A DNA stretch of 64,000 nucleotides from Synechococcus sp. UW140. Lineage in GTDB: Bacteria > Cyanobacteriota > Cyanobacteriia > PCC-6307 > Cyanobiaceae. The stretch is from positions 1-64,000 of the forward strand of contig NZ_UCOB01000004.1 of the NCBI RefSeq assembly GCF_900474295.1. The letters are read 5' to 3'. The notes under the pieces are model-generated. The model saw nothing but the letters and a program-made list of their open reading frames with translations. It did no database searches and was not told the DNA's origin. Positions 12,191 to 17,264 of this stretch are shown here, piece by piece. Positions within the stretch are counted from its first letter, which is position 1. The number at the start of each line of letters is the position of its first letter. The translations under genes and the position numbers were made by a program.

Positions 12191-14299
12191 TCAGCTCCCA
12201 ACGAGCCATCTGCCGCAGCCCGCAACAGCGGTCAGCACCATGCAGGCTGCCAACCAAGCTTTGCGTTGGTTGCACAGCATTCGTCTCAGCACCACAACAC
12301 TGCCGAGAGCTCCCACTGTGACGACTGCACTCTGGCAGAACCGGATCACATGGGGATCAGCTTGCCAGTTTGGCAGCCCCAACGGAGGCAACGCCTGTAG
12401 GCCCTCCATGCTGACGGGTAGAAACATCCCCGCCTCCCTCATCCCTATCGGTAGATGGGAGGCCAGCAACAGTGCCCACAGCACTGGTAAGAAGCCATAG
12501 AGCGTGTGTTCTAGGCGTTGTTGGTTGATGATCATCCGGGCCATGAGATAAACCGCCGCCGGTAGGGCAAGGCTGAGGCATGCGATTGCTAACCGCGGTA
12601 GCAGAGGTCCACTTGTGATCGAGCTTGGCGTTAGACCAGTCCAGTCCCACAATTTCTGCCATTGCTGTAAGCAGATACTCCCGGTTAGGACCAAGACCAG
12701 GCCAGGTTCACCGTTGGGAATCACCATGTCGCGTTGAAGGTCGGCAGCAGGTGGCCGGATCGCTAGGCGTACGGACCGATGCGGACAGGCCTGTGCGCAG
12801 GTCATGCACAACACGCAATTGCGGTTATCGCGGAGATGGGCGGGATGGGTCCCAAGTGGGCAACCTGATGTCTGTAGTCCCTCCCCTTCAGCGGGCCCTC
12901 CTTTGAAACAGGCGTAACTGCTGCAATTTCCGCTGCAGACTCCGGCTTGGGCGCGTAATTCCAAAATGGACAATTTGGCGAACAGCCCGTTCATGCCACC
13001 GATTGGACAGAGATAACGGCACCAGAAGCGTTTTTCGAAGCGTATCGATCCGATCACGGCTCCTGCTGTGATTAGCAGCAACAGACAACTGCTGAGTTGC
13101 CCGTTCTGAGGCAAATCGCAGAGGCTTTCCCAGAGCAGGATGAGGGCAAATCCACCGGCCAGCCATCTTGAACCCCAGGCATCGTGATCACCACGTGGCC
13201 ATGGGGATGGGGTCCAGCCCAACCGCCGTGCCAGCTTCTGGCTTAGTTCACCCCAAACCATGAACGGGCAGAACGAACACCACAACCGGCCCACAACAGG
13301 AAAGCTGAGCAGAATCAGTGGCCACCACCAGGCCCAAAACAAATTGAGTGCTCCGTTGTGATCCCTGTCTTGGGGGCCAAACCACAACCAAAGATTGACC
13401 AGAACAAATAGCCAGCTCACGATTCCAAAGAGCAGGAGATTCCAGAGCTGAGGTGCGCGCATCCAGTTGCGCAACTTTGGTTTCCATGCCCACAGGTCAA
13501 ACCGTGAATGCTGTTGCCTTGGTGACGTCCAGAACACGTCCTCTGGCAACGCCTTCGGACTGTTGCCTTGGCGACGCACTTGCTGGAGTGCTCGCTCGAC
13601 CAACGCCTCGAGCTCGCGCAGATTGTTCGGAAAGTCATGGTTCTGCAGTTGTTTCACCACTGCAATCGGCAGCTTGGGTGGCTTCTTCCAGCCCAGGCGG
13701 CCACTCTGTTGTCGGATGCCGTAACGCAACCAATCTCCGAGATCCTGACGTCGTACCCGTAGTGGTGGCACTCGGATCAGCTGCGTAAGCGGTGACAACT
13801 CAGGGATGGCGCTTTCGGCGGTTATCAGCAGCCGTCCCCGAAAAGTCTGAGGTTTGCGCTCCAGCCCGGGAGATTGCCATCGGCCATTGGCTGCCATCTC
13901 CACAATCTTTTGGCGCACAGGCGCTTCGAGCTGTTCGAAGTTGTCGATGAGAAGACTGCCTTCGCCCACCAGCTCCAGAAGCGGGACCGGCTCATGGTCC
14001 CCTTGCCGCCCGAAGAGCTCACTGCCATCACTGCGCATCTGGGCCCCGTCCACGCGCAGCATCAGTTGATGCCTTCGTTTGGATCCAAAGTGAATCAGTG
14101 CTGCGAGGTTGTCTTTCTCAAGCCCCGGTTCACCCACCAGCAAAACTGCCTGGGGATGGCGATCCGTTGAGGCCTCATGTATCGCCTCCCTTAGTCGTCT
14201 TGCCTGCGGGCTATTGCCGACGACACCGCGGCGGGGCCTGGCCACTAAATAGGGGGCAAGCCGCTGAAGTGTTGCATTGCCTCCTGCACTGGTACTCAT
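12191..14299 (-). CDS. Degenerate sigma54-type AAA+ domain fused to membrane polyferredoxin
   Basis: A 702-residue protein. Residues 27-255 resemble the AAA+ domain of sigma54 activators, but Walker A is altered (GEPGLEKD, 56-63), Walker B ends in DN instead of DE (LLIDNFEQ), the GAFTGA loop after ELFG is missing, and there is no C-terminal HTH. Residues 285-445 are a NapH/NosR-like membrane part with two CxxxCP-type motifs (WCSFCPF at 340, WCRYLCPIGG at 427). Cys-rich motifs follow (CSGNCSSYAC, and CVLCMTCAQACP at 495-505), the latter a 4Fe-4S ferredoxin signature. Three to four more spans end the protein. A membrane electron-transfer role is likely; the AAA+ part is probably a scaffold or sensor, since cyanobacteria lack sigma54. 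Confidence 0.8.
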   Translation of the reverse strand: MSTSAGGNATLQRLAPYLVARPRRGVVGNSPQARRLREAIHEASTDRHPQAVLLVGEPGLEKDNLAALIHFGSKRRHQLMLRVDGAQMRSDGSELFGRQGDHEPVPLLELVGEGSLLIDNFEQLEAPVRQKIVEMAANGRWQSPGLERKPQTFRGRLLITAESAIPELSPLTQLIRVPPLRVRRQDLGDWLRYGIRQQSGRLGWKKPPKLPIAVVKQLQNHDFPNNLRELEALVERALQQVRRQGNSPKALPEDVFWTSPRQQHSRFDLWAWKPKLRNWMRAPQLWNLLLFGIVSWLFVLVNLWLWFGPQDRDHNGALNLFWAWWWPLILLSFPVVGRLWCSFCPFMVWGELSQKLARRLGWTPSPWPRGDHDAWGSRWLAGGFALILLWESLCDLPQNGQLSSCLLLLITAGAVIGSIRFEKRFWCRYLCPIGGMNGLFAKLSILELRAQAGVCSGNCSSYACFKGGPAEGEGLQTSGCPLGTHPAHLRDNRNCVLCMTCAQACPHRSVRLAIRPPAADLQRDMVIPNGEPGLVLVLTGSICLQQWQKLWDWTGLTPSSITSGPLLPRLAIACLSLALPAAVYLMARMIINQQRLEHTLYGFLPVLWALLLASHLPIGMREAGMFLPVSMEGLQALPPLGLPNWQADPHVIRFCQSAVVTVGALGSVVVLRRMLCNQRKAWLAACMVLTAVAGCGRWLVGS

Positions 14300-15333: not shown

Positions 15334-15391
15334 GACCTGCAGGGCTGACGGGCGCTCTCATTAGTGGCTACTCTTGAGAAGACCATATCGA

Positions 15392-15850
15392 ATGACGATG
15401 GCAACGAGTTCGTCTTCGACACCGGTTCAGGAGCCCCTTCAGCAGGGATTACATCAGGACGGTCGCCGTCTCACTCCCCAACGGCTGCGCATTCTGGATC
15501 TCTTTGAGCGCATGGGCGCAGGTCGGCACCTCAGTGCTGAAGACGTGCATCAGCAGTTACTCGAAGGTGAAGCGAAGGTTTCACTGGCAACGATTTATCG
15601 CACCTTACGGCTGCTGGTGGACATGGGTTTCCTCCAAGAGCTGGAACTGAGCGAGGCCGGCCGCCGCTTTGAGCTTTCCTCTGCGGATCATTGCGATCAC
15701 CATCACCTGGTCTGTATCCGCTGTGGTCGCACGGAGGAGTTCGAAAGTGTTCCTGTGATCTCTGCAGGCCAAGCGGCGGCCGATCAACATGGTTTTGACC
15801 TGATCGAATCGACCCTGAACGTCAGAGGGATCTGCCCAGACTGTCGCTAA
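15392..15850 (+). CDS. Fur-family metalloregulator
   Basis: A 152-residue protein from ATG 15392. The N-terminal winged helix (GRRLTPQRLRILDLFERMG, VSLATIYRTLRLLVDMGFLQ) binds DNA. The dimerisation part has the regulatory metal site HCDHHHLVCIRCG and a structural zinc pair (CIRCG with GICPDC at the end). The family covers Fur (iron), Zur (zinc) and PerR (peroxide); the sequence alone does not settle which. No znu or iron genes are next to it. It follows the phosphoesterase remnant and converges with the DUF3721 gene. Confidence 0.9.
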   Translation: MTMATSSSSTPVQEPLQQGLHQDGRRLTPQRLRILDLFERMGAGRHLSAEDVHQQLLEGEAKVSLATIYRTLRLLVDMGFLQELELSEAGRRFELSSADHCDHHHLVCIRCGRTEEFESVPVISAGQAAADQHGFDLIESTLNVRGICPDCR

Positions 15851-15872: not shown

Positions 15873-16331
15873 TCAGTCAGTGCCTGGATGGTGTTCGCAG
15901 GGCATCCAGAGATCTCCCATGGCATGCACCCCTTGACAGCCGATCTTCTTCGCTTCCTCTTCGGCCTGTTCCCGACTGGGGTAGGCCATTGATGGCTCTG
16001 ACTTCTGTGCCGATGTTGTGTGGTTGTGCAATTGGTGGTCGTGGCTCTTGCTTCCGTCGAGTTGCACCAGCCCCATGCTCACCGGGCCCGCCGTCCAGAT
16101 CCCCATCGTGTTCACGCCGACGGCCAAGAGGCCCATGCCTACGACTGAAAGGTTGATCACGCCCATGGCGACAACGCCAATGGAGACAACTCCCATCGGC
16201 ACGACACCGATACAAACCACCCCCATGGGCACGATGCCGATGGACACAGTGCCAAGCGGGGCGATGCCGATAGCGAAGCGCTTGGGCTTGCTGCCGCAGT
16301 GGGCAGGTCCTGTGTCTGCTGATGCGCTCAT
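15873..16331 (-). CDS. Decapeptide-repeat protein with DUF3721 tail
   Basis: A 152-residue protein of two parts. Residues 19-88 are seven consecutive ten-residue repeats of the form VxIGVVPMGV (for example VSIGIVPMGV, VCIGVVPMGV, VSIGVVAMGV), each made of two pentads, which suggests a hydrophobic beta-helix. A His-rich linker follows (SKSHDHQLHNH). Residues 114-147 match DUF3721: MAYPSREQAEEEAKKIGC then GVHAMGDLWMPCEH, with two Cys. DUF3721 is widespread in marine cyanobacteria and has no known function. No signal peptide is evident, but the repeats could associate with membrane. Confidence 0.75.
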   Translation of the reverse strand: MSASADTGPAHCGSKPKRFAIGIAPLGTVSIGIVPMGVVCIGVVPMGVVSIGVVAMGVINLSVVGMGLLAVGVNTMGIWTAGPVSMGLVQLDGSKSHDHQLHNHTTSAQKSEPSMAYPSREQAEEEAKKIGCQGVHAMGDLWMPCEHHPGTD

Positions 16332-16358: not shown

Positions 16359-17264
16359 CTAGGTGGTATTACTGCCTCCATTCAAAGCCCCCCCACAGCT
16401 GGAACCGCTGCCGGCGGTACAGCCGAAGCAGTGTTCGGCGACGGTGATCGCCTGGTGCTCTAGCTCTTGTGCAGGGATGCTCAACAGATTCTCAAGGGTT
16501 TGAACATTGCCGCCGCAGGCGATCCCGAGTTGCTGATTGAAATCACAGTCAAAGAGTCTCCCCTGCCAGTTCACGCTGATCAGGGACCTGCACATCACCG
16601 CCTCGAGGTTCTCCGTCCGGAATGACTGGCGCAGCAGCTCCCGATAGCTCTGCAGCTGATTGCTCCGTTCCAACTCTCTGGCGAAGCGTTCGATCGCCAT
16701 GTTGGTGATGGTGAGCAGATGGTTGAAGCGGATGCCGTGGTCGCTTAGCAGTGCCTGCCGGTAATGCTCTTCAAGCTGATTCTGGGCCGGTGGAAGCTTG
16801 GGACCGGCTGGGTTGTACACCAAGTCCAGGCTGAGGCCTGTGCTGGGGTCTCCGTATCCGAGCTGATTGAGTTGGTGCAGTGCCTCGAGACTGCGCTCAA
16901 ACACCCCTTGGCCCCTCTGGTCGTCCACCCGACCCTTTTCGGTACAAGGAAGGGATGCCACCACATGCACGCTCTGGTCGGCAAGGAAGGCTGCTAAATC
17001 GGCCTGCCCCGGTTCGTTGAGGATGGTGAGGTTGCAGCGGTCGATCACCTCCACTCCAAGCCGGCGTGCGTCTCGAACCAACTGGCGAAACAGGGGATGC
17101 AGTTCCGGTGCGCCGCCTGTTAGGTCCAGCACCTGCAGGTTGAGATGTTCCAACACGCGGGGGATCAATGTCACCTGCGATTCGGCCATCATCTCGGTGC
17201 GCCAGGGTCCGGCATTGACATGACAGTGGCTGCAGCTCTGATTGCAGCGGTAGCCGAGATTCAC
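16359..17264 (-). CDS. arsS: ArsS-type radical SAM protein (arsenosugar pathway)
   Basis: At least 301 residues. The radical SAM motif is CNQSCSHC, and the C-terminal Cys cluster CFGCTAGSGSSC is typical of ArsS, a partner of ArsM in making arsenosugars. GTG 17264 is the only normal start, but the same frame continues upstream with family-like sequence (TTTAPFPTLTRGALRTLQ joined to VNLGYRC) to about 17321. That stretch holds no ATG, GTG or TTG; an ATC sits at 17319-17321 where the start would be expected, so the true N-terminus is probably about 19 residues longer. No arsM is next to it. Confidence 0.8.
   Translation of the reverse strand: MNLGYRCNQSCSHCHVNAGPWRTEMMAESQVTLIPRVLEHLNLQVLDLTGGAPELHPLFRQLVRDARRLGVEVIDRCNLTILNEPGQADLAAFLADQSVHVVASLPCTEKGRVDDQRGQGVFERSLEALHQLNQLGYGDPSTGLSLDLVYNPAGPKLPPAQNQLEEHYRQALLSDHGIRFNHLLTITNMAIERFARELERSNQLQSYRELLRQSFRTENLEAVMCRSLISVNWQGRLFDCDFNQQLGIACGGNVQTLENLLSIPAQELEHQAITVAEHCFGCTAGSGSSCGGALNGGSNTT

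Follow-up and report, generated by a model that had tools for sequence, protein, structure and literature searches.

The window, the whole stretch of 64,000 nucleotides of Synechococcus sp. UW140 DNA that was analysed, carries at positions 12191-14299 of the reverse strand an open reading frame without internal stop that encodes 702 amino acids. We confirm that this protein consists of an AAA+ domain joined to a NapH-like polyferredoxin with nine transmembrane (TM) helices. A sequence-only reading of the locus had proposed an enhancer-binding-type AAA+ module fused to a membrane iron-sulfur protein, and both halves of that proposal are borne out by the matches described below.

Domain architecture and relation to known iron-sulfur carriers

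The sigma54-activator-type AAA+ domain with its lid occupies amino acids 24-262 (positions 13514-14230, reverse strand), as judged from Pfam families PF00158 and PF25601, matches of the structural model and dN/dS values. Sigma54_activat was matched at residues 27-162 with an E value of 2e-7 and a score of 31.1 bits, above the cut-off of 20.2, and AAA_lid_14 at residues 181-263 (5e-7). This part is closest in sequence to sigma54 activators of known structure, and NtrC1, PspF, FleQ and DmpR were the top structural matches of its model, with Z scores of about 18-20 over about 225-235 residues (VIA-align). It contains a Walker A motif, GEPGLEKDN (residues 56-64; positions 14108-14134, reverse strand), and a Walker B motif, SLLIDN (residues 115-120; positions 13940-13957, reverse strand), in which an asparagine is found where the catalytic glutamate is expected. 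No family of DNA-binding (HTH) domains was matched in the 702-residue protein (Pfam), nor was such a domain found in full-length relatives.

The membrane part begins with TM helices 1-4 and their membrane-edge motifs C341xxCP and C427xxxCP (residues 284-450; positions 12950-13450, reverse strand), recognized from model helices, hydropathy, positive-inside alternation and the conservation of the cysteines. A cytosolic two-cluster [4Fe-4S]-type domain follows (residues 451-522; positions 12734-12949, reverse strand), in which Fer4 and NapH models coincide with the cysteine sets C455-C459-C464-C480 and C495-C498-C501-C505; Fer4_5 was matched twice in the protein (2e-7; Pfam). The C-terminal block (residues 523-702; positions 12194-12733, reverse strand) comprises five TM helices and the invariant residues E622, G624 and Q656. 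Hydropathy and counts of lysine and arginine in alternating loops give four TM helices before the iron-sulfur part and five after it, and this topology predicts that the AAA+ domain shares the cytosolic side of the membrane with the full set of 12 motif cysteines. The AlphaFold model of the whole protein has a mean pLDDT of 68.9, which is higher in the AAA part. For the C-terminal half, modelled with a mean pLDDT of 70.9 and very low confidence (<50) in the iron-sulfur part, no PDB match was obtained with Foldseek, and Z scores did not exceed 6 with VIA-align. A new fold for this half was set aside, since a modest-confidence model without PDB match is uninformative.

Among the nearest described proteins is NapH/MauN (TIGR02163), NapH being a quinol dehydrogenase subunit, which shares the multi-TM iron-sulfur layout, the CxxCP/CxxxCP motifs and the two [4Fe-4S]-type motifs. 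However, the match at residues 335-511 (E value 6e-9; NCBIfam) scores 35.8 bits against a curated cut-off of 213, and the family has five extra TM helices as well as an AAA+ and cNMP head. An assignment as NapH equivalog was rejected because the score is far below the cut-off and the genome has no NapA over the cut-off, the search for NapA having returned only sub-cut-off pieces of a 749-residue frame. The sequence-only reading had spoken of a NapH/NosR-like protein, and only the first of these names can be kept. NosR and the PceC-type flavinylated NapH-like proteins are also fused multi-domain membrane polyferredoxins, but they carry an extracytosolic FMN-binding domain that the family protein lacks; no FMN_bind family was matched in the protein (Pfam) or in the genome, and NosR was therefore rejected. 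Flavinylation has been reported to be under-represented to a striking degree among Cyanobacteria (PMC8238504).

Distant relatives of the C-terminal half were encountered beside FTR1 in a Rhizobium FTR1/cupredoxin iron-uptake operon. Polyferredoxins of the FtrD/CcoG type, which serve in iron uptake and Cu(II) reduction, are NapH-like membrane iron-sulfur carriers like the family, with different head domains. No NCBIfam model of CcoG or FtrD was matched, and FTR1, P19 or cbb3-oxidase neighbours were not noticed in the family neighbourhoods. In NapH-like proteins electrons travel across the membrane or along it, and we tentatively propose that the family protein works in the manner of a carrier of NapH type to which a new head has been added.

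A sigma54-activator domain in genomes without sigma54

Motifs were counted in an alignment of 177 distinct family members. The four cysteine motifs contribute 12 cysteines, all of them invariant (177/177), as is the lysine of Walker A (Lys62 in the window protein; 177/177). In clade A, to which the window protein belongs, the Walker A motif is mostly GEPGLEKDN, with most of GExGLxKDN nearly invariant, and in clade B the canonical GKT is present. At the position of the Walker B glutamate (residue 120), glutamate is never found (0/177) and N, K, Q, C, G or D occur, and the GAFTGA loop is absent from every member (0/177). Alignments to NifA and to a 653-residue activator from another class of the phylum (L053:7249-9210, reverse strand) showed that the FRxDLYYRL segment with the arginine fingers, which precedes PPLRxR, is missing, and the stretch E162-P178 is 16-19 residues long in all members. 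That activator keeps GAYTGA and a Walker B DE, unlike the family. Sensor II is often lost in the family. The degeneracy claimed by the sequence-only reading thus holds for Walker B and for the missing GAFTGA loop, whereas its description of Walker A as weak was overstated given the invariant lysine. From an AAA+ domain that lacks the Walker B glutamate and the arginine fingers ATP hydrolysis is not expected. Between pairs from the genus of the window genome, dN/dS in the AAA part is 0.12-0.21, so that this part is under purifying selection and is not simply decaying.

The rpoN gene is absent from the genome itself (99.98% complete), and in 195 genomes of the class only fragment-sized matches were obtained, one of them over the cut-off (38/160 positions), in a search in which 4 control genomes were positive. 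The lineage therefore lacks sigma54, as had been supposed from the sequence. Neither an rpoN gene together with intact activator motifs in homologues nor an N-terminus other than AAA+, which the sequence-only reading had named as grounds for abandoning it, was found. Bacterial enhancer-binding proteins such as NtrC1, PspF, NifA and FleQ have in common with the family the AAA+ fold, the lid and the Walker A lysine, whereas the family lacks GAFTGA, the Walker B glutamate, the arginine-finger segment and a DNA-binding domain, is membrane anchored and occurs in a lineage without sigma54. On these grounds, including the missing rpoN partner, a function as sigma54 activator was ruled out. The presence of such a domain in genomes without sigma54 suggests that it was recruited onto a membrane iron-sulfur protein and stripped of its catalytic and sigma-contacting parts.

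Distribution and genomic surroundings of the family

The family was searched for in 291 genomes of the phylum and in the public genome collection. The same fusion occurs throughout the cyanobacterial class, at no fewer than 519 loci, and a full-length match was obtained in most genomes of the 195-genome class sample. It is near universal in larger-genome cyanobacteria, being found in nearly all those sampled outside the most streamlined marine lineages. Among the Cyanobiaceae, 81 of 160 genomes and half of the window genus have the gene, and among the matches listed it was not found in Cyanobiaceae genomes near 1.6-1.9 Mb. The class-wide recurrence of the fusion and the low dN/dS of its AAA part argue that it is not due to chance. 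Trees of either half place the Cyanobiaceae in one clade (support 0.998 and 1.0), and the AAA tree and the C-terminal tree give the same split into clades A and B with support of 1.0 each, so that the fusion is older than the A/B duplication. The fusion module goes back to the ancestor of the class and is no special feature of the window genome.

Surveying the domain pairing across genomes, as the sequence-only reading had recommended, also revealed a third domain. The usual family form has about 850 residues with a cNMP_binding domain at the N-terminus, which is present in full-length relatives and absent from the window protein (Pfam). It is missing in other lineages too, with proteins of 728 residues in L223/L224 and of 723-725 residues in L024 and L032. 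In the lineage of the window, this cNMP-binding-like domain has been lost.

Among variant forms, two loci (L220, L221) encode a fusion of 1121 residues in which the degenerate AAA+ domain is duplicated in tandem. Broken, split or remnant copies occur in some Cyanobiaceae genomes (G304:C8, G251, G340, G407, G221), where frameshifts due to sequencing errors are possible; the break in G304 lies near the AAA/membrane junction. Phage records gave no match to the family protein. Family members are annotated as transcription regulator or cyclic-nucleotide-binding protein. A keyword search of open-licence papers found none on the family, and a paper on the oxygen response of Acaryochloris does not mention it under domain-type names. 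The family is widespread and strongly conserved, and apparently unstudied.

Clade A genes of the Cyanobiaceae show recurrent linkage to hemN. In three genomes of the window genus (L181-L183), hemN precedes the family gene by 11-36 bp in the same orientation, and the two form a predicted operon. In 8 of the 51 Cyanobiaceae genomes holding both genes (G356, G364, G413, G358, G342, G300, G303 and G339, from five genera and in several orientations), hemN is found within 10 kb, where about 0.36 would be expected. A binomial test on seven linked genomes gave 8e-8, and a smaller value with eight, though these figures overstate independence because the genomes are related. Near the gene in further Cyanobiaceae genera are AcsF/ChlA, heme oxygenase, a fatty-acid desaturase, aldehyde decarbonylase and an ArsR regulator. 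Some loci (L242-L245, L251) were picked after the hemN linkage had been seen or as part of a wider sample, which biases counts over the examined loci. In the Cyanobiaceae sample 51 of 52 hemN genomes also hold the family gene, a figure confounded by descent and genome size; strict co-occurrence of hemN with clade A does not hold outside the Cyanobiaceae in the 195-genome class sample. In most cyanobacteria clade A genes stand as singletons, and outside the Cyanobiaceae no conserved neighbours of theirs were found. Some Cyanobiaceae orthologues lie within the gene set of the low-oxygen ChlR regulon, which consists of chlAII-ho2-hemN and desF (PMC4500134). However, the family protein is not a listed member, the reported ChlR targets in Synechococcus 7002 being only acsFII, ho2, hemN and desF (PMC4500134), and hemN is absent from the window genome.

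Clade B, represented by 22 loci, has cysK nearby in 17 of them; in 16 of these 17, cysK lies 3' of the gene in the same orientation, no more than 535 bp away and mostly within 40 bp. Also found around clade B genes are psbA (223 bp upstream in L050), cydAB for cytochrome bd, an SQR-like flavoprotein, MBL-rhodanese and rhodanese proteins, a YgaP-type TM protein, a Rieske protein, ArsR regulators and HdrB/C-like proteins. Among the matches listed, a partial set, hemN is present in 12 of 13 clade B genomes compared with 83 of 195 overall (P 2e-4). Taken together, the genome neighbourhoods suggest a role when oxygen is scarce or sulfide present.

The sequence-only reading had suggested a check for co-occurrence with the neighbouring Fur and secreted-protein genes. 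G348, a near-identical genome, is the only one in which these neighbours are kept, so that they tell nothing about function; more can be learned from relatives, in which the gene is linked to low-oxygen tetrapyrrole genes and to sulfide genes, a linkage that is invisible in the window alone. In this part of the window lie a Fur-family regulator of 158 residues (15374-15850, forward strand), a small repeat-rich protein with GLTT repeats followed by a terminal DUF3721 domain (15873-16331, reverse strand) and ArsS, an arsenosugar-biosynthesis radical SAM protein with DUF3641 (16359-17264, reverse strand; TIGR04167, 426.9 bits). The Fur, secreted and ArsS neighbours were for the same reason rejected as partners. 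In L040 a Fur-family gene is found 5 bp downstream, and the arrangement in L041 is similar; this is an isolated case. Control by NtcA was rejected, since GTAN8TAC upstream of the gene was not above expectation.

Proposed function and its alternatives

The reading that we favour, with a probability of roughly 40%, is that the protein carries electrons in the membrane, has a head that binds nucleotide without hydrolysing it, and serves in microoxic or sulfidic conditions. The head would bind ATP or ADP without turnover and would probably be the part through which a ring or dimer is assembled. Together with the cNMP-like domain, where present, it might gate the flow of electrons under microoxic or sulfidic conditions, and the electrons may pass from a cytosolic donor such as ferredoxin to the membrane quinone pool or to a thiol or sulfur acceptor. 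It is doubtful, though worth stating, that the family forms a class of membrane electron carriers in which the flow is gated by an AAA+ assembly that binds nucleotide but is catalytically dead, joined in most cyanobacteria by a cyclic-nucleotide-type domain; such a protein would be a retired transcription activator, reused at low oxygen or in sulfide to couple transmembrane redox chemistry to the state of energy or of a signal.

Alternatively, the polyferredoxin could sense redox state or oxygen and the pseudo-AAA+ head could act as the output through the binding or release of a partner such as a regulator, an RNA polymerase subunit or an enzyme. The descent of the AAA+ domain from transcription activators, the cNMP-binding-like domain as a regulator module and the linkage to low-oxygen and sulfide genes are all consistent with a sensor, and there are precedents, as NosR-type proteins were once viewed as regulators and NifL controls NifA. 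However, neither a DNA-binding domain nor sigma54 was found, and nine TM helices with 12 invariant motif cysteines are more than a sensor needs and resemble an electron-transfer protein, so that we regard a sensor as unlikely.

Rather less probable is a substrate-specific reductase, acting on sulfur species such as persulfide or polysulfide, with the sulfide captured by CysK in clade B, or on a metal ion, as CcoG does on Cu(II). The direct linkage to cysK amid sulfide genes in clade B and the Rhizobium iron-uptake operon of the distant C-terminal-half relatives would fit such an activity; clade A, including the window gene, is without linkage to sulfur or metal genes, no separate catalytic subunit was seen, and cysK may merely serve sulfide assimilation.

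It is improbable that the AAA+ part is a structural or oligomerization remnant that binds no nucleotide on a plain NapH-like carrier, as the losses of the Walker B glutamate, arginine fingers, GAFTGA and often sensor II and the split near the domain junction in G304 might indicate, because the lysine of Walker A never varies and the motif around it hardly does over most of its length in clade A, the AAA part is under purifying selection and no cyanobacterial family member without it was established.

A stand-alone relative of the C-terminal half, 452 residues long and 29% identical over about 309 query residues, is encoded on a plasmid of Deinococcus ficus (L138), where it sits behind a His-rich, secreted-looking protein.
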